Below, piece after piece: positions 794 through 37,688 of a DNA stretch of 64,000 bases. Position 1 is the stretch's first letter. Each line of letters starts with the position of its first letter. The notes below the pieces were generated by a model. That model made no database searches and was not told the DNA's origin. It saw only the letters and a program-made list of their open reading frames with translations. The DNA comes from Stropharia rugosoannulata. Taxonomy: Eukaryota > Basidiomycota > Agaricomycetes > Agaricales > Strophariaceae. The stretch lies in NCBI GenBank assembly GCA_028532985.1, contig JANCIK010000010.1, positions 930,001 through 994,000 on the forward strand, written 5' to 3'. The position numbers were made by a program, and so were the translations under genes.

Positions 794-3700
794 CTACCAT
801 ATAGTTTGGTATGCATATTTACTAGACCAGTTATTAATTAAAAAGGATGTGCATCTATCAAGTATATTATCAGATGTCCATTCATTAGGCATTGGGGCAA
901 GCTTGGGAAATACTGGAAATAGCATGCAACTTTGCCGAATATTTGAGACTGGAATAATTGAGCACCAGGCTTGAGTACCTGTCGGATTGGCACCTGCTAA
1001 AGGTTCCATCTTTTTGATTAGATACATGTTACCATTAGAAACAGATGGCTGGGATGGTATTGGTGAGTACCACTCAATATATGCTAATGGCGAAGTTGGC
1101 CAATTGTGAGGGGCATCTTGTTGCCCTAAGCGAGTATCCAAAACCTTCGGAAGAGTAAAAATAACCTTTACTCTTCCTATTCTTGTGCCTTGATTAAAAG
1201 AATTAGAAGTGCTATAGCAACATATAATCTACATACCTATAAGCCCAGTTGACTCTGCTTTATCATTAACCATAGCTATAACAGTATCAAATTTTCCTAA
1301 ACTGTTCTGTTGTGATATTGGAATAGCTTTCACTGAGTCTTTTTCCCCTGTATTATCGTCATCAAGACTGGTAGGACTAAAGCGAAGTATGTTGTAGACA
1401 TCAACTCGTGTAAAGGGTAAAGTAGCCTCAGCTAAAGCTTGTTGCGATAAAGGCTGGGACCGGAGACCATTAATAAAGACCTTCAGTGAGTGAATAAAGC
1501 CACGAGCATTATGCTTCTCCTGGATTAGAGAAAGCATTCTTTTAGGATAATTGGGATATTTTGCAAGGGATTTGACTGATTTTGGTGGTTTATTTAATGG
1601 TGTATTCATTTGTAGATTTGCTTCAAAGCCAGTAACTTTTTCCTGTCGTGAAAGCCAAGTAACCATTTGAGGAAACTCATCCCGTTGATTACTTGCTCTC
1701 CAACCATCCTTTGCAAAGTCGATGTGTAGTCGTTCAAACATCTCAGTGTTATAGTTGTCTGTTGTCCCAAAGAGCTTGATAGAATCAACATAATGCAGCA
1801 AAGAGTGAAACTTGGGGATATTGAAGTTGTCTCGTACACCAACATTGAGAAAGTATGCTTTGTGTTGGTGAAACCGCTTCAGAGCATCGGTCAAATACTC
1901 TAAAGTAGTTGTATCATGGGTGGGATATTGGGCAATATAGATAAAGTCTAGCAGTGCTGTAATTGCCTGGGCAGCTTGAGTTGGAATACTTCCGACTAAG
2001 CAGCCTAGAAGAATTTTAGCCATGTTTTTTCGTTCAAGCCCAGTTACTTGAGAGAGAGATGTAAATCCATTTTTGAAGTGGCGAACTCCAAAGGAAGGTG
2101 GAAGACTTTGAATTCTCCGGTCTAGCTCTCCTTTCTGTAAAAGCTTTCCACACCATGAGATTAGATGCTTTAGGACCCCTTGATAAAGCTGGTGTAATAC
2201 ATCAGGTGTTAATGACTGGTGAATGTCGGTCAGAGGAAAGTCTTCCCAAAAAGGCTTGAATACACTGCCTGCAACATCATGGGACATGCAATATTTATGA
2301 AACTGGTTCTGGTTGTCTCCTGAATAAAGTTTGGCCTCTTCAATGGTGGATTTTGTCCATTGCTGAGTTCTGAGCTCCGATAGTGCTTCATCTCCAAGAT
2401 TATTGGCCTTTGCTTTGCATTTGACACAAGTCCCATATTTCGTACAAGAAACAAGACATTGTTCAGGATAGTCGGCAACATAGCAAGTAAGGATAGGAAA
2501 AACAAGACGAGTAGCACCATCAGAGCTTGCCATTTCTATGCCCTCATTTCCAGCTTTAATGAGAGGTTCTAAAACGATTTTCATTGATTCATGGAAAAGC
2601 CTTTGAACTCTAGATCGGTGTTCATTTTCACTCATTTGTGATCGGTTGATTTTGTCAACTGAAAGGTAGGCTATAAGGATGGTAGCATGGGAAGAGGGCT
2701 TTCTTCTTGTTGCTTTAGGGATGTTTCCAATCGTAAGATAAACAGGATAGGCTGATTTTCCCCCTGAAAACTGGGTTAACTGGGTTTTGTCTGTAGCAAT
2801 TATGACAGGAGCTAAAGTAGCTCCAACTGGAAGTCGACTCTAAAGTGAAGTAAATACAACTTGCTATATCAAGAATTGTGATTTGAATATAACATACCTG
2901 AAGAACACTCCACCATTGACCTGTCCACATTTCATTGAATATTTGCCCATCTTTACGAGGGCTAGTATACACCTTCTTAGGCTTAAATTTCATCATAGGC
3001 GACAGATGGGGGTCCTTCCAAAGAGACTCGATGGCTTGTATTGGATTACGATGCCGAATAGTATATACTTCATTAGGTTTATCGGCAAATCTTAGTTTGC
3101 AAGTCTTCCATTCGCCTGCTTTCTCGGGCATAGAGTCAAGTTTCTTGTGCAAACCCCGAATATTATGGTATGAGAGACCAAGCTTTTTGACAACCTTGAT
3201 AGTTTGAGTTAGTAAATACAACTGTATTAGTAGTATTGAAATTACCCCAGGAATTTTAAGTAATCGGTCAAATGCATTATGGCCTGGCCCATCGTTAACT
3301 GCCCATTGAGCTATTTTCCAATCTAGCTCTGAATGAAAGGGATGAAACTTGGGATCCACTCCCTCTTGAAGCATATGAACATCACCATTGCCATCCAAAG
3401 TGTGGATATGTGGGTTACTGGTTGCTTGATATCGAAGAATTCTACCAGCAGTAGGATGCTCTTCTTCAATCCTTTCATCGTCATCATCATCATCTAGTAA
3501 TCGCTTCATTGACAGCACTCTACTGCGATAAGCAGCAGTTTGAGGACCTGGGCCTGCCTCACCCTCCAAGTAGTTGTCAGGACCTGGAATAAGAGCAAAC
3601 TCATCTACAATATTGTCGAATTCCTCATGAAAAAAGTCCTCAAGATCTTCGCCATCTAATTCTTCGGGTGTTTGGTTACTAGCTTGCTGTCCAGTATTCA

Positions 3701-3908
3701 GGGCACTGCTAGCAATGTTGTCGTTGGATCCAAGGTCATACTGTATTGGGGCATTTTCTTGTATCTCGTAGGTGTTTTCAGCATTCAAATCCTCTAGTTT
3801 TTCCTCCATATACCAGGAGCAAGATCGTGATGAGGTTAAATGGGCATTTACCCCACCCCAGGTTTTGAAAAATCTTTCGCATCCAGCAGGGCATTCAAAG
3901 TTGGGCAT
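794..3908 (-). CDS. Plavaka-family DNA transposase (copy 1)
   Basis: Transposase of the Plavaka family, cut-and-paste elements related to the CACTA/CMC group and abundant in Agaricomycetes. The start at 3908 gives a C2H2-like finger (ECPAGC, later H and C) followed by an acidic low-complexity region. A GTATGT intron at about 2899-2839 joins to the catalytic core. Family landmarks in the core include ATDKTQLTQFSGGKSAYP, the CYVADYPEQ segment, a CTKYGTCVKCKAKA zinc motif, TPDVLHQLYQGVLKHL, and FNIPKFHSLLHYVDSIK. A further intron at about 1228-1180 leads to the C-terminal exon, which stops at 794. A third short intron near 3245-3190 is likely. I see no frameshift or internal stop in the core, so the gene may be functional. 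Terminal inverted repeats were not located. Confidence 0.85.
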
Positions 3909-4060
3909 TGCTTATCAGACTCTGAGATAGTGGGGGTTTTGGTACAACTTTCGGTTGCATTCTCACACATATATCTAAAGTACCAATTACAATTGTGCTA
4001 TTAAAAGCTGTAAGCTCACGATTGCCAACCATATACACCAAATCGATTTAACATACCTAT

Positions 4061-4640
4061 TTATATAGTATATTTCCGTGAGTAAGCTAAGGTCTTCTTT
4101 GCATATCTGATCGTTTTTGCTAATAGAAGCTGCTTTTGTTGAAGCAATGCAAGAAGCTTTACTCTTTTATTGCTCTTATGGCGATAAATGGCTTCCAAAG
4201 CTTTTGACTTACGATACAATCGCCGATGGTACCGAAGTGTCGTTTGCTGCAGCTCAATACATTTGGCCTTTAGTCTTTTGTTGGCAGCTGGTCTGGGCCA
4301 ATATGGCAATGTAAGCTAAATAGTATGAATAGTATATTAGCAATAGCAGTTTGGAGGCAGTTTGTATAAGTGCAAATCTGAAATAGTACATACCTGTTCA
4401 TCCGAAAATTGGGGCCATCTATTATATTTCAAAGTATAAGCATTGTAATATTCACTACGGTCTGAGAAGTCTTCAGGATGGAGTATTGCATAATCCAAGG
4501 ACAGACAATGCTGATAGGACTTAGTAGATTCGGAATAGACATAGAGAAATACATACTTGGGAAGAGTCGGAAGAGTCAATGTTCTCAGGAGCTGCATCAT
4601 CGGAAGTAGCAGGAGCAAGCAAATACTATAAGTACTAGTA
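4061..4640 (-). CDS. Small basic hypothetical protein, probably 5'-incomplete
   Basis: At least three exons can be joined on the minus strand: about 4640-4558 (ending in a Ser/Asp-rich stretch, NIDSSDSSQ), about 4520-4396 (SYQHCLSLDYAILHPEDFSD...), and about 4318-4061. The junctions use GTATGT donors and short introns with AAG or TAG acceptors. The last exon is strongly basic and helical (Lys, Arg and Leu rich, YRHKSNKRVKLLALLQQKQ), which could be a DNA- or RNA-binding tail or a coiled coil. I do not recognise the family. It sits 150 bp upstream of the Plavaka transposase start on the same strand and might be a partner ORF of that element or an independent remnant. The start codon was not resolved. 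Confidence 0.4.
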
Positions 4641-4996
4641 ATTAGCAGGCTGTTTCGGGAATGGCAAGGTTATAGTAATTACTATTTCTTGCTCATAGTA
4701 AACTGAGCTTTCAACCTCATCACTATTGGGAAGCATGAAAATCGGGGTTTCGAAAGTGAAGTCAAGTGAAAGGTTTCAAGCTGGTAAATAAATCATGTGA
4801 TTATTGTTAATGGTTCGGGACTACAACAGGAAACGTTGGTCAGAGTTGCAAATATAATATTGATTGATTGAGTATGCAAAATACATGAAATGCATTGTAA
4901 AGATAAAATATAATAATAAGAGGGGATATGTAAATGTTATTGGTGGAAGGGGTGGTTGAGTAGTGAGTTGGGCAAGGACAATGGGGCAGGTAGAAT
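4641..4996. other. Intergenic, AT-rich, no feature seen
   Basis: About 360 bp of AT-rich sequence between the small basic ORF and the GC-rich array. I see no gene or clear repeat. Composition changes abruptly near 4960, where the GC-rich array begins. Confidence 0.5.
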
Positions 4997-25897: not shown

Positions 25898-26175
25898 ATG
25901 CCTCCTCTGTCGTGGCCACGCATTATAATACCCTCGATGGCGGGGTTCACCCAGACATGCCCCGGGTGTGGGCATTCTGACCTTAGTTGGACAGGATATT
26001 GGTCACATTTACGACAAAGCCCCGACAGTCGCTGCACAAAAGTCTTAGCAGAATTGAATGCAGCTTTACAAATAGATTCTGACGTTTCGAGCTCGAATGG
26101 CAGTGATTCCAAGGAGGATGAGGGGGATGAACTCACTGAAGAAGACGATGAATTAGAGAATTCAGACATTCACGA
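25898..26175 (+). pseudogene. Truncated zinc-finger N-terminus, Plavaka-like
   Basis: The ORF begins at ATG 25898, with an alternative in-frame ATG near 25940 (MAGFTQTCPGC). It contains CPGCGHSDLSWTGYWSHLRQ and then a Cys (QSPDSRC), followed by a Ser-rich and an acidic stretch (DSKEDEGDELTEEDDELEN). A C2H2-like finger plus acidic region is how the Plavaka transposases in this window begin. The frame is cut by the Gypsy LTR at 26176. The flank on the far side of the Gypsy element is not Plavaka sequence but a GH31 pseudogene, so the remainder of this gene is missing. Confidence 0.5.
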
Positions 26176-27128
26176 TGTGAGGTGCGAAGTTGGGTAGGAC
26201 GGGTCTGAAAAGCCTGTCTCTATAGTTCACAATGTGCGAAGGCAACGTGTGTACAACGATAGCACGTTGAAAAGGTTTTACTTGTTTTAAAACAAGGAGC
26301 TTCCAGTGTACGAGGTTTAAACAATGGTTTCCGATGCGAACTGGTATGAAGTGTGTAGGTAGAATTTAACCCTGAAGGAAGCTGGAGAAGTACAGAGATA
26401 TTCTACTCCTTAAATACTCGTCTGGTTGCCATGCCCAGATCGTTCCATATACATCCACGAAGATCCGACCGCCCGTGCTGTCTTTTTCTCGTCGGAAACC
26501 ATGCTGCACTACAGCATGCTTCATATCTTGGCCACAAATTTCCTTATCTTCGGAAACCAAGCCCAAGCACAAGAAATCTTCCTGTGGCCGGATCATCTCC
26601 ATGTTCACCCCTAAACATACATCTCCTCCAACCCTCTCTCCACACCTATGTCCCTTGTGTTTGTGTCGAGATTCTTCTTCTCTCTGCTACCACACGCCTG
26701 CATGTCATCGGAAACCCTTGCATATTGTCGGAATCCGTTGCCATATTTGTCCCAGGTCGTATGTATGAGTATTTCCATGTGATTGACTCCCTTGTGGGTC
26801 CATAGTTACATCAGATTGTTAATATTAATCTGATGTTGTCGGCATCAGAAGTCCAATATTGCTCTGATGCTGTTATCTTTCTTGATCTGCCATTGAGTTG
26901 TAATAACATCTTGAGTCTTCCTTGTGCTTGTCTCTTGTTTCATCATGTACATGTTTCATATCTTGCATCTTCATATCTTAGACTTCATATTTCGTGCTTC
27001 TTCTTGTTCTTTCAGTTTCCGATAGTAGTTTCCGATTGTCATGGCGGATATGTCGCTTCTTGTGTATCTATGTTCTGAACCTTATGGTTTTTCATGTTTT
27101 CACGAGGGGCCAGCCCCAGCCCCTCACA
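26176..27128 (-). repeat. Gypsy 3' LTR (left)
   Basis: 953 bp. A hairpin with arms ACATCAGATT/AATCTGATGT lies at 26808-26836, and a second, GCATCAGA...TCTGATGC, just after it. It has several TCGGAAA/TTTCCGA motifs. Confidence 0.96.
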
Positions 27129-27141
27129 TCTCCCCCCAACT
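27129..27141 (-). promoter_or_regulatory. Gypsy polypurine tract
   Basis: In element sense the bases AGTTGGGGGGAGA immediately precede the 3' LTR, the expected plus-strand primer. This position places the whole antisense region inside the retrotransposon. Confidence 0.85.
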
Positions 27142-27175
27142 TTTAAAACACCACCCTCCTGGGTGGTCAGAAACC

Positions 27176-27182
27176 TATAAAT
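27176..27182 (+). promoter_or_regulatory. TATA-like box before antisense ORF A
   Basis: TATAAAT lies 33 bp before ATG 27215 on the plus strand, close enough for a short-leader transcript. Only the sequence supports it. Confidence 0.45.
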
Positions 27183-27214
27183 TTCAGCCAAAAGCGTCGT
27201 CGCCATCAAGCACC

Positions 27215-27958
27215 ATGGACCCCGCAGCAGAAAGAATATTTCGCTCGCTCTGTTTTGCTCCAGGAAACCGAAGCCATGCATTCGTTGTACCAACAACCAT
27301 GCGTAAATTTGCGTTGTCCATCCGTCACCAACATGAAATCCTGTGCCTCGCCATCTACAAGGACATCCGCACACGCAGCGTACGAGAACTGAACATAATC
27401 GACCATGCGCAAGTGGAAGCGTACGTCCATGATCACCTTGATCACATGGTAAGCCCTCGAACTGTTTCACAGCTGGCCCTGCTAATGATAGCTCAGCGCT
27501 TATTGCTATGCTCTCGTGTCAACATGCGGCCATCAAACGAGCGTGAAATTGAGCGCATGATTCCGCCTGAATGCCGCTACCTAAGCGCAAGTGCCAGGCA
27601 TTTACTGGAGATGTTTCCGATGGAGGAACACGAAGGGTTCGAGTATTGGTCAACCATACTGCGGTTCATGGCACTATATGCTGAGGACACTGCCGATGCA
27701 ACCAAAGAAAACCAAGTCGACTTCAAAGAATTTAATGAACTGGACAGCAACAGTCGGTGGTGGATACAGTTTTCAAACTGCGTCAAAGCCGAAGACCCCC
27801 TTGAAGAGCACCTGCCCGCATTCAGGCCAGCTGCAACACCTGAAGACACATTGGATATCGAAGAAATCCCAGCGGCAATCTTTCATCTTCAAATGGCCGT
27901 GCCCTCCCAGCGTCCACATGCCAGATTCCGAACATCGGTGCGAGAGATGGATATATAA
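27215..27958 (+). CDS. Gypsy antisense ORF A, unknown protein
   Basis: 247 codons, intronless, ending in TAA. The frame is also open back into the LTR, but the ATG at 27215 (MDPAAERIFRSLCFAPG) with its TATA-like box is the natural start. The protein is helical and soluble-looking, with no signal peptide or membrane segment; segments such as EREIERMIPPECRYLSASA and EEHEGFEYWSTILRFMALYA stand out. I do not recognise a domain. It is transcribed against gag-pol and lies directly inside the polypurine tract. ORF B begins 38 bp after its stop in the same direction. Confidence 0.7.
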   Translation: MDPAAERIFRSLCFAPGNRSHAFVVPTTMRKFALSIRHQHEILCLAIYKDIRTRSVRELNIIDHAQVEAYVHDHLDHMVSPRTVSQLALLMIAQRLLLCSRVNMRPSNEREIERMIPPECRYLSASARHLLEMFPMEEHEGFEYWSTILRFMALYAEDTADATKENQVDFKEFNELDSNSRWWIQFSNCVKAEDPLEEHLPAFRPAATPEDTLDIEEIPAAIFHLQMAVPSQRPHARFRTSVREMDI

Positions 27959-27996
27959 AGCGTAGAGCACTAGTAGATAGTTCCGTAGCACCCACA

Positions 27997-28485
27997 ATGC
28001 AAGCACCTTTGCGTCTATATCTTCAATCCTTAGTGCTTGAGTTGCCCACCAATCTAAACGATTTCCGATCGCGATTTCCGATCCCATACGTCTTCAAACA
28101 TTGCCTTGATCCCTTCATCGACGCCCTAGAATACGAATACACACGAATACTCCAGCTTGACACACCCAACCTGCAACCTGTCATAAACGATCTCCGGTCC
28201 TTCTTGTTCCTAGGACAGACCATAGCAGTACACAGCTTCTTCAGATGACGTGCTGCCCTAACACAAGCACAGTATATTGCATGGCATGGTCGTCAGCATA
28301 TAGCCATACATCGGTCGCCTGTCGAGCAAATCACCATGGTCGAATTGAGGGTGTTAATGCATATGCGATACATGACAATGACATTTGGATACACCGGGCA
28401 CGAGATTCCCGAAATCAAGGAGCGCATGGACGACATTTTCTTCCAGTATCAACAGGCATGTGTGTGCAGAGTAGGCAACCCATAA
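27997..28485 (+). pseudogene. Gypsy antisense ORF B, unknown protein with one TGA
   Basis: ATG 27997 opens 83 codons (MQAPLRLYLQSLVLELP...) to a TGA at 28246-28248. The same frame continues for 78 more codons (RAALTQAQYIAWHGRQH...GYTGHEIPEIKERMDDIFF) to TAA 28483-28485. The uniform character on both sides, and the AGA-TGA-CGT context, suggest an original CGA. The protein is helical and unrecognised. Its 5' spacing from ORF A (38 bp) and its orientation suggest a cargo block transcribed together or in series. Confidence 0.55.
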
Positions 28486-28628
28486 CCAACAACCGGCAGT
28501 CGGAAATTAGCTAGATAATCTCCAGACAAGTGACATGTATCCATGCGTCCAGATCGTCCAATGCCAAGCAACCCAGCGCCTGAAATCCGCATAAAAGGAA
28601 AGGCAACTGGTCTGTCCAAACACCAGAA

Positions 28629-29139
28629 ATGAGCACCACCACTTGATTCACCGCATTATTGACCACAGCTGTGAAGAATCCAACGGACATCATGCAGGTC
28701 CTAGAGCATGCCATTCAGCCCACCATAGACCAATTGTTATCCGATCAAATGCTACCTCGTTCCGCAGCAGACACAATGGAAACACATCGGACACTTGCCG
28801 CCCTATGCCATTACGTTGTAAGTTGTCCCACTTGACCTGTTGAAATCAAACCCAATTGACAATCCATATTCTGCACAGAATGACCATTTTGAAGATCACA
28901 TATCCGCGAAACAATTCCGACCCCGGTCATCGTGGACATTACTCTTGCTTCGCCGGATCATGAGCGAATACGGAGCCGTTCTTGTAGACAGCAAGCAGGA
29001 TAAGGCATTAAGCCTACTCAAAGCAGCTGAGAAGCAGTCGCAAGGTTTCCGCCACTGCTACTTGTGCGAGACTGACTTCACCATAGATGGAGTAGAGAGA
29101 TGGAGGGACTGGATTGAGAGACAAGCCAATCAGCCGTAG
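28629..29139 (+). pseudogene. Gypsy antisense ORF C, spliced unknown protein with one TGA
   Basis: Exon 1 28629-28817 begins MSTTT, then a TGA (28644-28646), then FTALLTTAVKNPTDIMQVLE...HRTLAALCHYV. A GTAAGT..CAG intron (28818-28878) joins in phase to exon 2 28879-29139 (NDHFEDHISAKQFRPRSSW...FRHCYLCETDF...). The two-Cys CYLC pair near the end is not enough for a zinc domain. The intron supports transcription from the plus strand, opposite to the retrotransposon genome. Alternatively translation could begin at a later Met (MQVLEHAI). No family recognised. Confidence 0.55.
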
Positions 29140-29757
29140 ATACACTGCTCATAGATGTAAACCCATTATAATAGATTTCCGCACACAATTTTGACACTGT
29201 CATATGATGCCGAAAAGGGCCGAATGAAAATGAAAGATGCCGAAGTAAGACTGAACATGCCGCCCAGCTTACACATGTGCCATCACAGCCGAAAATGCCA
29301 GTTGAAAACTCCGCGGCGGCCCAGAACATTGCCACAACAACAACCCGACAGCAGACCAAAGAGGTATCGCCATTTCCTAAAGCAGCACGGCATGTCACCA
29401 TAAACCCGGTGCCATCGCGTCGTCATACTTGATTAGGCAACGCCGCTTTCCAGAACAAGAGCCACGGTGATTTCCGACCTAAAAATAGAAAATCCGAACA
29501 AGATTCGCGTCGAAGTTATCGCAGTTCCAGTAAAGGCATCCCAATTGTCCAACATACAGGACCGAGTCATAGAGAAGAATCCACAGCATTCTATTGGTTT
29601 CTTCATAATGCCATCCGTGCATGACACCGTACCCAATCCAAGCTAGCCGATATCCGAAAACGTGCAGAACCACAGTCCTAGAAGAATATAAAAGCCTGCC
29701 CATTCCACTCATACTTTCACCATTCTTTCCTTCCCTCCTCCATCTCCCTTCCCAATA
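29140..29757. other. Non-coding or unresolved part of the Gypsy antisense region
   Basis: About 620 bp between antisense ORFs C and D. A 59-codon frame at 29224-29403 (MKMKDAEVRLNMPPSLHM...) is open but unsupported. TTTCCG-type motifs continue here. The stretch just before 29758 is CT-rich (CCATTCTTTCCTTCCCTCC), like a fungal promoter leader. Confidence 0.4.
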
Positions 29758-30753
29758 ATGCCTCCTTGTCGTACCGCTCGTCCTGCGTCTACACACGAAG
29801 TCGATATGCGCTGGGCCGCCCCTCAAATCCTTGGTCTCGCCGAAGGATGGTACGAATACGAGCAAGTAAGTAGCCATGGAGTATTGAATGTCTGTTTTAT
29901 TAACCATTGATCCAGATATGTTCTTGGTGCAAAAATCACCCTGGTTACATGTGTACCTTGCGCTACACACCTCGCTGGAGCAGGGCGTGTACCAACTGCA
30001 AGGTTGACAAAAAGAATTGCAGCAATAATACTGCCGAATGTGTAAGTTTCTGGTAATTGTTTTCGGTTGTTTTTCATGCTGATAACTTCATCCGTAATTT
30101 AGAAACAACACCCGGGCGACTTCTTGACTCGCACCCTAGCTGGTAGCGACTTCTCATACGACCGACGGTCCCGTACCGTCCACCCAGATCCCGAAGAAGA
30201 AAGTGATGACAAGAGCGACAGCAACCAGGACGACGATGACGAGGAAGTAGACGAACTCGAAGAAAATGACGAGGACAACACAGCAGCCCTCCACGACGTG
30301 CCCACGAGCCCTATGTGCATTGAGGATGACGGCCCTCTTCCCTATTACGACGCTATGCACGCTTTCGAGTACACAGATTCCATCGTCGCGAATCAAAAGG
30401 ATGTTGGCGAAGGAACCTCAGGTAAGTAATTGCAATTTCCTATCATCGACAGATTTCGGCAACCATATTGTACAGGTATTACGCGTTCAAGCCCCAGCAC
30501 GAGTACTAGCGGTCCTGTCGAAGGTTTACCATCATATGCGCCATACACACAGTTGGTGCGAGATTTCCGCGAATGGCAAACGACTGCCAACCCGATAAAT
30601 GGGCTTGAAGAGCTGGACAACCTCTGCGACAGAAACTTGCGACATTATTCCGATATGGAAAATCGACTTCGCAATCTGGTGGAATTATCGATGGAGCGCA
30701 TTGAGGAGATCCGTAAAATGTCCGGGGAAGTCAAAAGGTTCCGTAGGAAGTAA
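29758..30753 (+). CDS. Gypsy antisense ORF D: Zn2Cys6-like DNA-binding protein with acidic and coiled-coil parts
   Basis: Four exons join in frame: 29758-29865, 29916-30041, 30103-30421 and 30476-30753 (276 aa), all with GTAAGT donors and CAG/TAG acceptors. Cysteines at 38, 41, 49, 61, 64 and 71 give C-x2-C-x7-C-x11-C-x2-C-x6-C (CSWCK...RACTNCKVDKKNC), close to the GAL4-type Zn2Cys6 binuclear cluster, which binds DNA at CGG triplets. A long acidic segment follows (EEESDDKSDSNQDDDDEEVD). The C-terminus is helical with heptad-like spacing (ENRLRNLVELSMERIEEIRK) and suits dimerisation. This is the architecture of a small transcription factor. The introns are antisense to the retroelement RNA and so survive retrotransposition. 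I infer it may bind the TCGGAAA motifs of its own element. Confidence 0.8.
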
Positions 30754-31011
30754 AAGGGATTATATGTATTTCTTCTTGTCGTATTTCCTTTCACCCTTCG
30801 TCGGAAACCAGTTGTCATAATATCTTGTAATCAATAAATTGTCTTGGCCATGCATATTTTAGTTTGACAACCATAATTTCATAATCTTGTAAAAAAACAG
30901 AAACATAACCTAAAAGAAAAAGAGTTTATTTAACAAATGAGAAGAAATGAACTTGAAACTGTTGAAGCTCCAATAAGAAATTTAAGTTGTGTAAGCGTTT
31001 TCGGAAACTTG

Positions 31012-34000
31012 TTATTCATCATCAGGCGCCACTTGCGAGTCCTCGTGTACTTCTTCATGAACCATGCCTTCAATTAAATCCTTGGGTTGGGATAATAGTT
31101 CCCATGGTATTGCCAGCGGTTCCCTTGATATATAAGGTATCAAGCGATATGCGGCGAATCTCTTGTAGGAAACAGCTCCACTAAGTTCAGCACAGATGTA
31201 AGACCCTCCTTTCGTTCGTCGTAACACCATTAGAGGCCCGAAGTATCGTGGTTTTGTTTTCCGATCAAGTGATTTTTCAACTGGTGAATTCCTGACTAGA
31301 ACCAAAGTACCTGGTGCGAAGTCCTGTGGTACGATGCGATGCTTATTATACTGTTCAAAATAACGAGCTTGTCGCAGCCGTGCTTGCTCCACTTTGTCCT
31401 TGACCCTTTCAAGATCTTCCGGTCGCTTCTGCAGCATTATAGCTCTTCTTGCTATTAGCTCTTCTTCGGAAATCATATCGACTTGATCGGGAAACATGAA
31501 GGTCGCTTCTGTGATGTCAAATGGGAATAATGGCTCCACTCTGTGCGCGATATAGTAGGGAGTATAACCTGTTGATTTTTGTACCGTAACACGTTCGGCC
31601 CATAAAACAAATCGGAGAATTAGTGGCCATATTGATAAGTCGCCTTCGCAAGTCTTGACTATTGCTTCCCTAACATCGAGATGTCGTTTTTCAATCAAGC
31701 CGTTTGCCTGCAAATTATATCCCGAAATTCTGATGTGGTAGATTCCATATTTTTCCGCCAAATAGTTCACGGCTTTAACCCAAGGTGTACCATTGTCTGT
31801 CACGATAATAGCCATAGCTCCCCATTGCGACATAACATCCAACAGAAATTCTCCTATAACCGTATGGTTTTCCGACGCTACAGCCAGAGCTTCAGGCATT
31901 CCCGAAAGTGAACATCGTAGATGAAGACAGAGATGTTTTCCCCCTTTTCCTTTGGGCATAAAGAAAGTATCTGCATGAACCTTGACAAATAGCGACAATG
32001 GACGAGCTACCGTTGGCGGAATGAGGTTCTTTACCCTTGACTGTCGCTGACATATATCGCAAGTCTTCAAGTACCACGTAAGATCATTACTGATGTTAGG
32101 CCACCAAAAACGCTTCGTGAGCCTATTCCACACAGTAAAGTAAGACTTATGTCCTAAATTATCGTGTACTTCTTGGAGTATCCGAAGCCTATCTTCTTGT
32201 TGTACCACTTGTTTATGTTCACCATCGTCGGACCTTTTCCATAGTTTTCCGTCCAGTATGAAGAATTGCCTTACTTTCTTGAGGAAGCAGTCGTACTCCT
32301 TTCTTGTGCGAATCCATGCGGGTCTTTCGGGGTCGCCTAGAAATTCTTTGACCTTCTTTAATTCCTCATCCATGTCAGCTCCTCTGTCGGAAACCGGTAA
32401 CTTAAGCGTTGTAGTAATCTCCGAACAGTGAGGTACCGATTTAGCTGCAATAAGTACCATAGCCTTGTAAGACAATGACGATCCCGGTATTTTCTTCTGT
32501 ACCATGGACATGTGAGTGAATTTCCGATCGTCATTTTTGTTTAAGACCCAGATTCCGAAGCTGCATGCCCTGTCAATCCAGTCTTCTACTTCTTCTTCGG
32601 AATCTTCTTGAGGATCTAATTCTGATCGTCTCCTTCTTGACAGACCGTCTGGTGAATGTGATTTTCCAGGGACGTGTTCTAGCTTGAAGTCAAACAAAAG
32701 TATAGCGGCTATCCAGCGATTTATCGTAGCATTAGGTTGTATATCGGGGTTGTTTAACATTCCCTTGAGGTAACTCGCATCAGTCCTGACTATCAAGTTT
32801 TCCACTCCAACCAGGTATATCCGATATGCTCTAAGGCTGCGAAATAGACCATATAACTCGATCTTGGCTTGTGAGTATCTTGATTCTCTTTCGTTCCAAG
32901 TTATAGACCCAAACCGCGCAGGATGTTCCTTTCCGTCTTCTTTAACCTGAGATAAAATAAAACCCACAGCGATGTTGCTTGAGTCCACCTCCATTATTAT
33001 CTGTCCTTCGGATTCATAGTCCAATGCCGTTAATGCTGGAGACTGAATTAAGAGACGCTTTAGACTGTCCATTGCTTCTTGTTCTCTTTGTCCCCATGTG
33101 AATTCAACGTCCTTCTTTGTTAGTTCAGTTAATGGTCTTGAATGCATTGCATAATCTTTTATAAAGATACGCATTACACCCAATGTTCCCAAGAATGAGC
33201 GAACTTCTGTCAAGTTTTCACAAGGTTTCCAATCCCTGATAACTCTGACTTTTGACTCATCAACCGTCCTTCCTTGGATGCTGCACATATGGCCAACAAC
33301 ATTAATTCTTGGTACAGCCAAAAAGGATTTCGAGGCATTGAAGGTTCCTCCAGCATGCTGTATCCTTTGAATAATGCGATGTACATTGTTCAAGTGTTCC
33401 CAGACAAATCTTCTGATACCAGGGTTTTCGGAAATCGTTTCATAGACCCCATTCTCATCTTGATAATAAGATCGTGGTCCTTTGACCGGTACATCATCCA
33501 CAAAAGGTGCCGTAAATTCAGGAATCTCCGGCTCCAGGATAAATGACACATCTCCTTGTTGGACTTGAACCGAATTTGTAAATCCTTGTGGTAGACAGGT
33601 CAATCTCAGGTTTCCGATAGGCGAAGAGAATGTAGTATAATCCCTTGAATCTTGATGAAGAACCCGATGGTCAAATCCTACAAACAAATCAAACATGGCA
33701 TAGATAGTTCTTCCACCGAAAGATTCCGCATAGAGTTCTACAACTGGCGGGAGAGCTGAGTCTTTTATGGTTACTGCATTCAACCTTCTCAGGTCATGCA
33801 CTACCCGTATTGCTCCGCTTTTCTTTGGCACATATAGGATCCTGGACCGATAAGGTGAACTAGAAGGTTCATATACTTTGCTTGCGACTTTATCTTGAAA
33901 AATTCTCGTGACTTCTTTAGCGATGCCTGGAGGTATCGGTATCGGTTTTTCCGCCCATGGTTCATGCGGTACAACGGGTATCTTTAGTGGTTCAAAATAG

Positions 34001-34548
34001 TCTTCTCTGAAGGCACCTTTCTCCATCTCATTCCAGGCGAATCCCATCTCATGTTCTTTAATGATCCATTGAACTAGACGGGCTTCATCCGGTGTCAAGA
34101 AGCCATCTTCATTTATGTTCCAGGCGTCCATTCGTTCTTTTGTATAGCGTATTCCTGGTTCAATATGGTCCACTTTAAAAGGTAATGGTTTCATATTAGC
34201 CAGAGGATCTGATGGAATTCTTCTAATAACACGATATTCTTCGGGAAGCATAGTTGACACAGGAAATGTCCGTCTCGCCACAGGTTTATATTTTTTCCTA
34301 GCTTTTATTATTAGTGCTCTTTGTTGAAAAGAGTAAGCATAAGTCTTCTGTAAACATTGGCCGATAAATCTGGCCGAAACTTCAAAATTAAAATTAGTAG
34401 GGTATATTTCGTGATATGATGATCCTCTTTCATCATCTATTCTTGCTGCGAATAAGGGAGTTATAAATCGTCCAAATGATAGTGCTGAAGGAATATCCTT
34501 CTTGTGCTGTTCATGTCGTTTCTCGTGCACTATATTTAACATGAACAT
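31012..34548 (-). CDS. Gypsy pol: reverse transcriptase, RNase H, integrase
   Basis: 1,178 codons from ATG 34548. The frame is also open upstream, in -1 relative to gag, which ends at 34572, so expression may use a frameshift or reinitiation. The reverse transcriptase has SRILYVPKKSGAIRVVHDLR, LTCLPQGFTNS and catalytic FVDD. RNase H has IIMEVDSSNIAVGF and later DASYLKG. The integrase has an HHCC zinc part (LGHKSYFTVWNRLTKRFWW...CDICQRQ), then catalytic residues in HADTFFMP, IVTDNGTPW and ANGLIEKRH. A GPLMVLRRTKGGSYICAEL-type segment follows; no chromodomain is visible. The whole frame is uninterrupted. Confidence 0.95.
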   Translation of the reverse strand: MFMLNIVHEKRHEQHKKDIPSALSFGRFITPLFAARIDDERGSSYHEIYPTNFNFEVSARFIGQCLQKTYAYSFQQRALIIKARKKYKPVARRTFPVSTMLPEEYRVIRRIPSDPLANMKPLPFKVDHIEPGIRYTKERMDAWNINEDGFLTPDEARLVQWIIKEHEMGFAWNEMEKGAFREDYFEPLKIPVVPHEPWAEKPIPIPPGIAKEVTRIFQDKVASKVYEPSSSPYRSRILYVPKKSGAIRVVHDLRRLNAVTIKDSALPPVVELYAESFGGRTIYAMFDLFVGFDHRVLHQDSRDYTTFSSPIGNLRLTCLPQGFTNSVQVQQGDVSFILEPEIPEFTAPFVDDVPVKGPRSYYQDENGVYETISENPGIRRFVWEHLNNVHRIIQRIQHAGGTFNASKSFLAVPRINVVGHMCSIQGRTVDESKVRVIRDWKPCENLTEVRSFLGTLGVMRIFIKDYAMHSRPLTELTKKDVEFTWGQREQEAMDSLKRLLIQSPALTALDYESEGQIIMEVDSSNIAVGFILSQVKEDGKEHPARFGSITWNERESRYSQAKIELYGLFRSLRAYRIYLVGVENLIVRTDASYLKGMLNNPDIQPNATINRWIAAILLFDFKLEHVPGKSHSPDGLSRRRRSELDPQEDSEEEVEDWIDRACSFGIWVLNKNDDRKFTHMSMVQKKIPGSSLSYKAMVLIAAKSVPHCSEITTTLKLPVSDRGADMDEELKKVKEFLGDPERPAWIRTRKEYDCFLKKVRQFFILDGKLWKRSDDGEHKQVVQQEDRLRILQEVHDNLGHKSYFTVWNRLTKRFWWPNISNDLTWYLKTCDICQRQSRVKNLIPPTVARPLSLFVKVHADTFFMPKGKGGKHLCLHLRCSLSGMPEALAVASENHTVIGEFLLDVMSQWGAMAIIVTDNGTPWVKAVNYLAEKYGIYHIRISGYNLQANGLIEKRHLDVREAIVKTCEGDLSIWPLILRFVLWAERVTVQKSTGYTPYYIAHRVEPLFPFDITEATFMFPDQVDMISEEELIARRAIMLQKRPEDLERVKDKVEQARLRQARYFEQYNKHRIVPQDFAPGTLVLVRNSPVEKSLDRKTKPRYFGPLMVLRRTKGGSYICAELSGAVSYKRFAAYRLIPYISREPLAIPWELLSQPKDLIEGMVHEEVHEDSQVAPDDE

Positions 34549-34571
34549 CTTTCCCGACCGTGTTAATTCAG

Positions 34572-36545
34572 TCAGGATTCTGGAAAATCCGCTGACTCTT
34601 TTTCGGAAACCTTATTCCTGGGCTGAGTTGGAATAGTAACCACCTTCTGCATGTTGGGGCAAGTCAAAGTGATTTCCTGGTCGCCATTTGTATAATCCCT
34701 AGTAGTGCATCCAGTATACACAAAGAACGGTCGTCCTATCAGAACTTGAAAAGGGGCTTTATCCACAACATGTACTTGAAAATAGAGTTCAAGGCTTCCA
34801 ATAGTGATTTTAAGGTTTTCGCACATTCCATCCGTTTGCGATAATTCCGTGTTGGCAGACTCCATATATATTTTCCTTTCTGGGTTTATATTGTGAGACA
34901 GTTTCCTCCATATGCGCTTGTCCATTGCCATGATTTCCGATCCTTGGTCCAAAACACATTCCGCCGTGAATTCACCGTTTAGCAACGCAGGTATCACCCT
35001 GAGTTTCATAAGGGGAGAAGCCGTCAAAAGGACTCTATCTGATGGCCCATTTTCCGAAGCAAATTGTAGCACATAAGACCCTTCATTTTCTTCGCCGTGG
35101 ACATAGCTAACCGTCGGAATTCTCTTTGGTGTAGTTGTTTCCTTGAAATATTTCCGAAGTTCTCCAGAAATAGCCAACAACTCTCTTTGAGAAATAGTAA
35201 TTTCTGCATCCAAGGATTTTGATATGACTTTCTTAAGAAGGTCCAAATTTTCCGCTCCAGAGGTGAATCTATACTGGGGTCCTTTAGCCGGTTCAAATCT
35301 TACATGTGCTTCTGGTATTGTCTTTTCCGATTTCCTTTCGGCAATCACGACTTCAGGGACTTTTTCATAAGCAGATGAGTTTTTTCCTGGTCCAGGTTTG
35401 TCTTGGGGCGAAGACCTTGTCCTCAGATAAACCTCACCGATTTCTTCGTCGACTTCTTCGAGTTTACTGGAAGAATTAAACAAGGTTTCAGCCGTAGTAC
35501 AGGAAAACATCATCGTGGTAGCTGGCAACAGGTGAGGGGGTGCATCTCGAGCACGTTGTAGTTTGAGAATGTTTTCGATCCTTTCTTTTATTGTTCCAGT
35601 TCCATTGATCCAGTCGCCGTTAGCCATTGTGAATCTACCATTCGGTCCTTGTTTGATGATTCCCTTGTTTATAAATTCATCCGGCAAGTTGCAAGACCTC
35701 ATAATATGATTAATGTCTCCGCAAAACAAGCAACCAGGGGCATAGCGCAGAGTGGAACGATACATAGGTCTTTCTTGCGTCGGAAAAGATGTATTTGGTT
35801 GGCCTTGCATAAACATCTTTATTGATCCTAATTCCGATGTCATTTTCCTTAGCATGAGCTCAAGAGCAGTTTCTTCGGTTTTCGTCCGTTCACGAGGTGT
35901 GTCTTCAAGGCCATACCTGTCAGAATAAGCGTTATCTTGAAGAACATATCGAGCCGCTCGATTAACTTGAAGATAATCATGAACTAGGCCCGGTTTCCGC
36001 TTTGGGTCTTCAGCCGTTAATTGAGTAAGAACCTTCGCCCTGAATTCTTTTGGGAGACCTAGAACATAGTTTCTGTTGATGTCGTCTCTTGAAGATAATT
36101 GCTCCTTCTCCAGATAAGTAGCTATAATCATGAATTCACAATGATATTCTGCTAGAAGTTCTTGATTATCCATGGGTTTGCTCGAAAACTTCTGTATTAA
36201 TTTATGCAGGTCGTTGACTGAGTATTTGTAGAGCGAATCCAACCCAGGGAAATATTCCAGTAATATTTGTTTATTCTCCTTCCAGGATTTGTTTTCATCT
36301 AGAATATTCTTCCATGTTTCGTGGTATCGGTAATCCACATACCACAGGGTTTTTGTAATCCGCGTGATATCCAATGTGTCTCCCCTGTCTTTGCATAATT
36401 CCTCGATGTCCTCTAGGTATCAATGTAAAGGAGTAGTTGGTCCTGTAAATGATGGAGCATCTTTTGAGTTGCGGTTTGGGTAAGGCTTGACTTTGGGCGC
36501 CACAGTTTGAACTTCAAAAGGGTTAGCTTCGATTCCATGATCCAT
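34572..36545 (-). CDS. Gypsy gag-protease with N-terminal TGA
   Basis: The frame is continuous from 36374 to the stop at 34574-34572 (600 codons) but has no ATG at its start. Reading further upstream in the same frame passes a TGA at 36422-36420 and reaches ATG 36545 (MDHGIEANPFEVQ). A further TGA lies at 36569-36567. Both resemble mutated CGA. The capsid-like part (ETWKNILDENKSWKENKQIL, LGLPKEFRAKVL) is followed by a zinc knuckle (CLFCGDINHIMRSC). An acidic linker leads to a retroviral-type aspartic protease with LDQGSEIMAMD and IGRPFFV. Protease fused to Gag rather than Pol is unusual but known in Ty3-like elements. Confidence 0.88.
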
Positions 36546-36714: not shown

Positions 36715-36732
36715 CCCTCGCGGTGGGCTCCA
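36715..36732 (-). promoter_or_regulatory. Gypsy primer binding site (candidate)
   Basis: In element sense TGGAGCCCACCGCGAGGG lies 3 nt after the LTR end. The leading TGG fits complementarity to a tRNA CCA end; I could not name the tRNA. Confidence 0.6.
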
Positions 36733-36735
36733 CGT

Positions 36736-37688
36736 TGTGAGGTGCGAAGTTGGGTAGGACGGGTCTGAAAAGCCTGTCTCTATAGTTCACAATGTGCGAA
36801 GGCAACGTGTGTACAACGATAGCACGTTGAAAAGGTTTTACTTGTTTTAAAACAAGGAGCTTCCAGTGTACGAGGTTTAAACAATGGTTTCCGATGCGAA
36901 CTGGTATGAAGTGTGTAGGTAGAATTTAACCCTGAAGGAAGCTGGAGAAGTACAGAGATATTCTACTCCTTAAATACTCGTCTGGTTGCCATGCCCAGAT
37001 CGTTCCATATACATCCACGAAGATCCGACCGCCCGTGCTGTCTTTTTCTCGTCGGAAACCATGCTGCACTACAGCATGCTTCATATCTTGGCCACAAATT
37101 TCCTTATCTTCGGAAACCAAGCCCAAGCACAAGAAATCTTCCTGTGGCCGGATCATCTCCATGTTCACCCCTAAACATACATCTCCTCCAACCCTCTCTC
37201 CACACCTATGTCCCTTGTGTTTGTGTCGAGATTCTTCTTCTCTCTGCTACCACACGCCTGCATGTCATCGGAAACCCTTGCATATTGTCGGAATCCGTTG
37301 CCATATTTGTCCCAGGTCGTATGTATGAGTATTTCCATGTGATTGACTCCCTTGTGGGTCCATAGTTACATCAGATTGTTAATATTAATCTGATGTTGTC
37401 GGCATCAGAAGTCCAATATTGCTCTGATGCTGTTATCTTTCTTGATCTGCCATTGAGTTGTAATAACATCTTGAGTCTTCCTTGTGCTTGTCTCTTGTTT
37501 CATCATGTACATGTTTCATATCTTGCATCTTCATATCTTAGACTTCATATTTCGTGCTTCTTCTTGTTCTTTCAGTTTCCGATAGTAGTTTCCGATTGTC
37601 ATGGCGGATATGTCGCTTCTTGTGTATCTATGTTCTGAACCTTATGGTTTTTCATGTTTTCACGAGGCGCCAGCCCCAGCCCCTCACA
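36736..37688 (-). repeat. Gypsy 5' LTR (right)
   Basis: 953 bp, one base different from the left LTR. Confidence 0.96.

Follow-up and report, generated by a model that had tools for sequence, protein, structure and literature searches.

Retrotransposons are thought to lose introns that lie in the sense direction, since their copying goes through spliced RNA; could such an element keep a set of spliced genes on its opposite strand, and whose genes would they be? The question is raised by a 64,000-nucleotide stretch of the genome of Stropharia rugosoannulata (assembly GCA_028532985.1, contig JANCIK010000010.1, positions 930,001 to 994,000 of the forward strand; the whole stretch is called the window). 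A Ty3/Gypsy long terminal repeat (LTR) retrotransposon lies there on the minus strand, from 37688 down to 26176, and four plus-strand genes, here called A (27215-27958), B (27997-28485), C (28692-29139) and D (29758-30753), fill the stretch from the pol stop to the polypurine tract and 3′ LTR. Five introns were recognized in three of the genes (B and C have a single intron each, and D has three). A sequence-only reading of the window had placed the pol stop at 31012 and the polypurine tract at 27129, with four opposite-strand open reading frames (ORFs) between them; both positions held (the pol frame runs over 31012-34611 on the minus strand, and TCTCCCCCCAAC begins at 27129), and the four ORFs are genes A-D. 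Its count of two ORFs with introns was too low: the stop in B lies in a 45-nt intron (28228-28272), and C has an intron at 28818-28878. Its three introns in D (29866-29915, 30042-30102 and 30422-30475) were exact, with GT/AG ends in 23/23 copies.

We consider it probable that A-D are accessory genes of the retrotransposon family, transcribed antisense from integrated copies and spliced, with D a nuclear regulator and A-C its helpers. Comparison of the copies showed inheritance of the genes with the element, kept frames, splice sites and TATA-like boxes, and a constraint on the proteins that is strong in A and D and weaker in B and C. The features of the block are given below, all on the plus strand; counts refer to the aligned copies L001-L023 of 28 block loci, L024-L028 having been omitted as partial or rearranged.

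27176..27183, plus strand: TATA-like box 5′ of A, TATAAATT in 23/23 copies
27215..27958, plus strand: gene A, single open frame of 247 amino acids, intact in 16/23 copies
27952..27960, plus strand: TATA-like box 5′ of B, overlapping the end of A, TATATAAAG in 22/23 copies
27997..28227, plus strand: gene B exon 1; spliced frame of 147 amino acids, intact in 19/23 copies
28228..28272, plus strand: B intron, 45 nt, GT/AG in 23/23 copies, CCCTAAC ahead of the acceptor
28273..28485, plus strand: gene B exon 2, from the spliced frame and the alignment of copies
28590..28598, plus strand: TATA-like box 5′ of C, variants of TATAAAAGG in 23 copies, exact in 13
28692..28817, plus strand: gene C exon 1; spliced frame of 128 amino acids, intact in 21/23 copies
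28818..28878, plus strand: C intron, 61 nt, GTAAGT...CAG in 23/23 copies
28879..29139, plus strand: gene C exon 2, from the spliced frame and the alignment of copies
29687..29694, plus strand: TATA box 5′ of D, TAT(A)AAAA variants in 23/23 copies
29758..29865, plus strand: gene D exon 1; spliced frame of 276 amino acids, intact in 14/23 copies (counted on the exon map of the window copy, which may understate D types V and VI, defined below)
29866..29915, plus strand: D intron 1, GT/AG in 23/23 copies, 31/43 interior columns variable
29916..30041, plus strand: gene D exon 2 with a cysteine cluster, seven cysteines in 22/23 copies
30042..30102, plus strand: D intron 2, GT/AG in 23/23 copies, 39/52 interior columns variable
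30103..30421, plus strand: gene D exon 3, acidic, from the spliced frame
30422..30475, plus strand: D intron 3, GT/AG in 23/23 copies, 34/45 interior columns variable
30476..30753, plus strand: gene D exon 4, from the spliced frame
30833..30838, plus strand: AATAAA 3′ of D, in 16/23 copies

All five introns keep GT and AG in every aligned copy. When the three D introns were pooled, 104 of the 140 interior columns (74%) varied and the lengths differed by 1-2 bases, so the intron ends are maintained by selection rather than shared through recent descent. The B and C introns are less variable inside (10/36 and 14/52 interior columns); that of B is 44 nt in L011 and 45 nt in the other copies, has a weaker donor, GTACAC, in the window copy, and holds the apparent in-frame stop of B within GT...CCCTAAC...AG in 23/23 copies. 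The sequence-only reading had proposed that introns antisense to the genomic RNA are invisible to sense splicing, and the intron counts came out as this predicts: none of the five was missing in any of the 23 copies, which fits introns hidden from the splicing of sense RNA. Such introns would stay unspliced and be recopied into DNA in every cycle, because the sense genomic RNA bears them only as their reverse complement. A fossil intron within A (27449-27472) was considered and not accepted; GTAAGC stands at 27449 in 23/23 copies with a nearby CAG in only 9/23, which leaves a lead to a possible remnant.

Changes among the 23 copies were concentrated at third codon positions. Variable columns at positions 1/2/3 numbered 39/34/98 in A, 24/18/44 in B, 28/10/38 in C and 124/86/224 in D (chi-square p of 2e-10, 0.0016, 0.0004 and 6e-16, respectively), and no skew was found in the three intergenic gaps of the same copies (p 0.65, 0.49 and 0.51). 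A repeat with five copies agreed (p 5e-14, 0.005, 0.002 and 4e-21 for A-D; 0.46-0.56 for the gaps). The ratio of nonsynonymous to synonymous divergence (dN/dS), calculated together with dS for 13 chosen copy pairs, was 0.07-0.24 in A, 0.08-0.17 in 12 of the pairs in D, and 0.06-0.14 in 12 of the pairs in pol. By these measures A and D are constrained like pol, and B and C less so, or with less power.

The block was present as a trait of the element family. Within the 48 Mb genome searched for copies, in which the window's element lies in contig C10, the DNA of the block gave at least 36 matches (here and below, genome match counts are lower bounds, the best candidates having been scored); 19 spanned about all of the block (88-100% identity) and 4 more its first 3.1 kb. 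A piece of pol gave at least 41 matches, 26 of them near-complete (covering at least 1,941 of 2,201 bases), and 24 of these 26 have the block at the expected place, 17 whole and 7 in part; the two that lack it are C9:2770741, with LTR sequence in its place, and C12:1643068. The sequence-only reading had asked whether other copies hold the block at this site, and had named accidental capture by a single copy as the outcome that would undo it. The block recurs across copies, being present in all 23 that were aligned, and no host locus for it was found in this genome. A nested DNA transposon was rejected as source of the block; the inverted repeats found there are short, imperfect and not at the block borders. 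Two loci are internally deleted, L027 lacking D and the end of pol, and L026 lacking C, D and more of pol. Separately, C5:694665-722004 holds repeated matches to gag and to part of pol, with LTRs that point the same way, suggesting a tandem array of internally deleted copies.

The element that carries the block has these parts:

36736..37688, minus strand: 5′ LTR (blastn LTR alignment, ends trimmed to TG...CA)
34575..36419, minus strand: gag-side ORF with a DUF4100 match (open frame, Pfam)
31012..34611, minus strand: pol ORF with reverse transcriptase (RT), RNase H and integrase (open frame, Pfam)
27129..27141, minus strand: polypurine tract; its complement TCTCCCCCCAAC begins at 27129
26176..27128, minus strand: 3′ LTR (blastn LTR alignment, ends trimmed to TG...CA)

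The LTR pair aligned by blastn over 26171-27128 and 36731-37688 with 2 mismatches in 958 (99.8% identical); trimming by eye to TG...CA left a single mismatch, at 27108. A 4 bp target-site duplication, ACGA, was read from the alignment ends on both flanks. Because its LTRs are nearly identical, trimmed or untrimmed, the window copy is, on this comparison, a young insertion. The gag-side ORF has 30 full-length DNA matches in the genome at 96-100% identity. In pol the Pfam matches stand in the order RVT_1 (261-441), RNase H (506-637) and integrase H2C2 (803-857); RVT_1 scored below its Pfam cut-off (23.2 vs 29.6 bits), and the RNase H and integrase zinc domains scored above theirs. Relatives of pol found by protein search have the same RT, RNase H and integrase set, the best named ones being from Agaricomycetes (Rhodofomes, Leucocoprinus, Pleurotus and Candolleomyces). 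The region of the polypurine tract, 27129-27148, is identical in 18/23 aligned copies.

Related Gypsy lineages of the same genome apparently also carry antisense, spliced genes 3′ of pol, as judged from the DNA after pol in 12 further copies whose pol is 45-54% identical to that of the window. The group at 52-54% identity (five places) has an antisense gene after pol. In L048, L051, L052 and L053 this gene has an exon 1 of 177 nt, a phase-0 intron of 49-59 nt and an exon 2 (junctions drawn by eye), and L047, a 95% copy of L052 missing part of exon 1, has it ahead of the LTR. Of the antisense proteins, those from L051, L052 and L053 share 36-38% identity (E 7e-36 or better), and the L048 protein has no recognizable kinship to them. 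Within the L054/L057/L058 family, 8 of 17 antisense frames of at least 60 codons after pol gave a ratio of nonsynonymous to synonymous proportions (pN/pS) of 0.06-0.27 and are free of stops in both other copies; among the 7 neighbouring pairs of these eight frames, 4 are linked by a GT-AG intron that is true in phase and conserved in 3/3 copies. A few overlapping sense frames of this family were also low in pN/pS (0.23 for 831-1187 and 0.08 for 1785-2003), which weighs against a simple antisense reading; because such mirror frames score low too, pN/pS alone cannot fix the strand there. The antisense frames of L059 and L060 gave no clear signal (two sequences with few changes), and no clear antisense gene was recognized in the DNA after pol of L049 and L050 (pol about 45-46% identical). 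Profile comparison found no recognizable kinship between the antisense proteins of the related lineages and A-D. Two side observations were made on these copies. An LTR of at least 1.7 kb, seen in L048 at 144-1853 (C12:330043-331752) and in L055 at 1-1706, takes in both the antisense gene and the last part of pol, and the gene is therefore present in each of the two LTRs; and antisense frames of L049 at 1543-4970 resemble, by eye, fragments of fungal protein kinases.

What might the proteins do? The D protein has seven cysteines (38, 41, 49, 61, 64, 71 and 78) in 22/23 copies, shifted by one residue in L010 and with two lost in the broken L014, followed by an acidic central part and a charged C-terminal region. 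Their spacing, C-x2-C-x7-C-x11-C-x2-C-x6-C-x6-C, resembles that of the Zn2Cys6 cluster of fungal regulators (C-x2-C-x6-C-x5-12-C-x2-C-x6-8-C), with no match to a Pfam zinc cluster. We propose that host RNA polymerase II would transcribe each of A-D in the integrated copy, starting at a promoter close to the 3′ LTR or just within it; that the transcripts would be spliced and translated by the host; and that D, to judge from its anatomy, may act in the nucleus on the expression or copy number of the element itself, with A-C as helper proteins. The strongest analogy for D is HBZ of human T-cell leukemia virus type 1 (HTLV-1), which would be a likeness of working and not of descent.

The D gene occurs in six divergent types: I (L001-L008), II (L009-L014), III (L015-L017), IV (L018-L019), V (L020) and VI (L021-L023). 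Divergence between types climbs at about 29650 and drops at about 30850-31000, limits that correspond to the TATA box and the poly(A) signal of D, and between-type dS was 0.5-2.2 in D compared with 0.05-0.26 in A and 0.05-0.19 in pol for the same 13 pairs. Among 11 young copies the D unit had a mean difference of 0.132, compared with 0.048 for A-C and 0.031 for both LTR and pol; full-length LTR pairs were at least 99.6% identical in 10/18 tested copies and in the window copy, with types I, II, III and IV included. Trees drawn separately for the segments LTR, A, B-C, D and pol from 18/23 rows (L010, L014, L019, L020 and L023 were left out; the LTR of L019 and the pol of L023 align with unrelated flank) conflicted in all ten segment pairs at support of at least 0.95. 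The conflicting trees and the mix of D types in young copies mean that the copies are mosaic and that several types of D were mobile at about the same time. L018 and L022, adjoining inverted copies at C1:269040-284595, show no difference over the LTR, A and the pol end; their D genes differ by up to 50%, a contrast that suggests, from these two copies, that conversion or exchange took place in the region of D.

The long persistence of divergent types of D is in keeping with a role that is type-specific or frequency-dependent. A bolder version of this, which we hold only tentatively and think rather unlikely, is that the D unit is an exchangeable type cassette: anciently diverged versions with the same protein design and saturated silent sites and introns would ride on recombining copies and be kept apart by negative frequency-dependent selection, each D type controlling elements of its own type only. 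If true, this would be a superinfection-immunity system of a eukaryotic retrotransposon, like the immunity regions of temperate phages, working through spliced antisense genes expressible only from the integrated copy.

Four other explanations of the block were weighed. The constrained proteins could be structural or infection-like factors, serving for example to form particles, to enter the nucleus or to pass from one nucleus to another, and not regulators, which we regard as possible, if doubtful. No domain was recognized in them and A-C could be anything; nuclear import of the pre-integration complex is among the topics discussed for plant elements in PMC7264820. Expression from an antisense unit of their own in the integrated copy, however, would set these proteins apart from the gag-pol phase, and the anatomy of D looks nuclear; these points weigh against the idea but do not decide the matter.

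It is quite unlikely, in our judgement, that the block acts mainly as antisense RNA, forming double-stranded RNA with the 3′ end of the genomic RNA and silencing the element, with the proteins mattering little. Such action of antisense transcripts is discussed in the account of PMC7264820, and the nucleotide divergence between D types would make silencing type-specific; but the codon-position skew, the kept frames and the kept splice sites are marks of protein constraint, which a role of RNA only does not need.

We think it very unlikely that A-D are a captured cluster of host genes, taken up antisense in one ancestral copy and then spread as passengers. Their spliced, TATA-bearing form is host-like, and the sequence-only reading had spoken of a host-style gene and of cargo. 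These terms do not suit the result. When each protein was searched against this genome, at least 34 (A), 47 (B), 53 (C) and 99 (D) matches came back (best candidates scored), all in element copies or fragments by their coordinates; because none of the four proteins was found elsewhere in this genome, A-D look like the element's own accessory genes. In a set of 5.8 billion proteins A and D had no match (150 and 456 candidates scored), vs 1077 for pol, and scans of viral contigs with A and a piece of pol gave no relative. Constraint on the copies, moreover, is not expected of passengers. Profile comparison among A, B, C, D and the antisense protein of the related lineages found no homology (best probability 3.6%, for A-C); given this null result, we do not claim B and C as duplicates of A, or A as the same gene in the relatives.

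Lastly, chance readily yields short ORFs and GT...AG pairs, and a single gene in a single copy would prove nothing, yet the idea that the block is chance ORFs and intron-like stretches in non-coding 3′ sequence can hardly be right, being refuted by the codon-position skew and by splice dinucleotides kept in 23/23 copies vs 74% variable D intron interiors. The seven D cysteines in 22/23 copies, the antisense frames and introns of the L054/L057/L058 family, and the dN/dS constraint also speak against it.

Several results weigh against the preferred reading, of antisense accessory genes with D a nuclear regulator. Transcription and splicing of the gene models are predictions from DNA, and the frames are intact in only 14/23 copies for D and 16/23 for A. 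D gave an outlying dN/dS of 0.53 in one close pair and pol one of 0.35 in one pair. C gave 0.12-0.45, with 1.38 in one close pair at a dS of only 0.012, and B was noisy, at 0-0.61 in its first half and 0.15-1.30 (one undefined) in its second, the halves including 42 nt of intron counted as codons. There was no Pfam domain in any of A-D and no match of note in the PDB for D, and the single-sequence AlphaFold2 model of A was worthless (mean predicted local distance difference test score 35). The case for a regulatory role is thus one of anatomy and analogy, and the absence of a bZIP or Pfam zinc cluster from D speaks against direct homology to known regulators.

Single antisense genes have been described in elements of this kind. 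Boty of Botrytis cinerea, a fungal Gypsy element, has one, brtn, between pol and the 3′ LTR (Zhao et al. 2011, as cited in PMC7264820, PMC8365987 and PMC4227169). The block is like it in being extra sequence antisense to gag-pol in a fungal Ty3/Gypsy element and differs in having four genes with five introns where one gene, as cited, is present in Boty; PMC4227169 also gives Boty pol a chromodomain, and none appeared in the Pfam scan here, which included no search aimed at chromodomains. The plant elements Grande (gene 23), RIRE2 and Retand (TRP28) have an antisense gene at this place (PMC7264820, PMC11963269), in Retand within a long region of 2.9-6.6 kb; the accounts drawn on in these two papers mention no introns in the plant genes, unlike B, C and D, and the word intron is absent from PMC11963269. 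The antisense ORFs of the window share their place and orientation with those of Grande, Retand and Boty; they are found in most copies of the family, and A and D are conserved like pol. No Pfam match to TRP28, SMC or another domain, PF04195 included, was found in A-D; brtn and gene 23 were not directly compared. A 2020 review describes the function of such antisense extra genes as unknown and urges a search for antisense and spliced transcripts. Extra ORFs beyond gag-pol, family-specific and called ORF3, are also present in LTR elements of bdelloid rotifers; the account of PMC5408684 does not describe them as antisense or as containing introns.

Spliced antisense genes are known from retroviruses. 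HBZ of HTLV-1 and APH of HTLV-2 to -4 are spliced and have a promoter in the 3′ LTR, and HBZ is nuclear and down-regulates the sense promoter, as described in PMC10186651. The likeness lies in an antisense gene of an integrated retroelement with splicing, predicted here from conserved splice sites and TATA-like boxes; by that account there is one gene there, spliced partly at its 5′ end, and there are four here, with the coding region itself interrupted by introns in three of them. HBZ belongs to the bZIP proteins, and A-D had no bZIP Pfam match, D having a cysteine cluster instead. The sequence-only reading had supposed a multi-gene antisense block in a fungal Gypsy element to be undescribed; as to a single antisense gene, Boty brtn came before, and no multi-gene, multi-intron antisense block was found in the literature searched, which covered few subscription papers. 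What would be new here, then, is the predicted block of several antisense genes with several introns.

With five introns persisting in three genes that run antisense to the genomic RNA, a retroelement would be able to retain a set of spliced genes of host style. Strand-specific expression, and a split between the phases of "integrated and regulating" and "copying", become directly testable in a fungus, and the divergent D types raise the question of why one 1.2-kb unit escapes the homogenization seen elsewhere in the element. Because further Gypsy lineages of the same genome have extra genes too, antisense extra genes broken up by intron-unaware annotation may be common in mushroom genomes.

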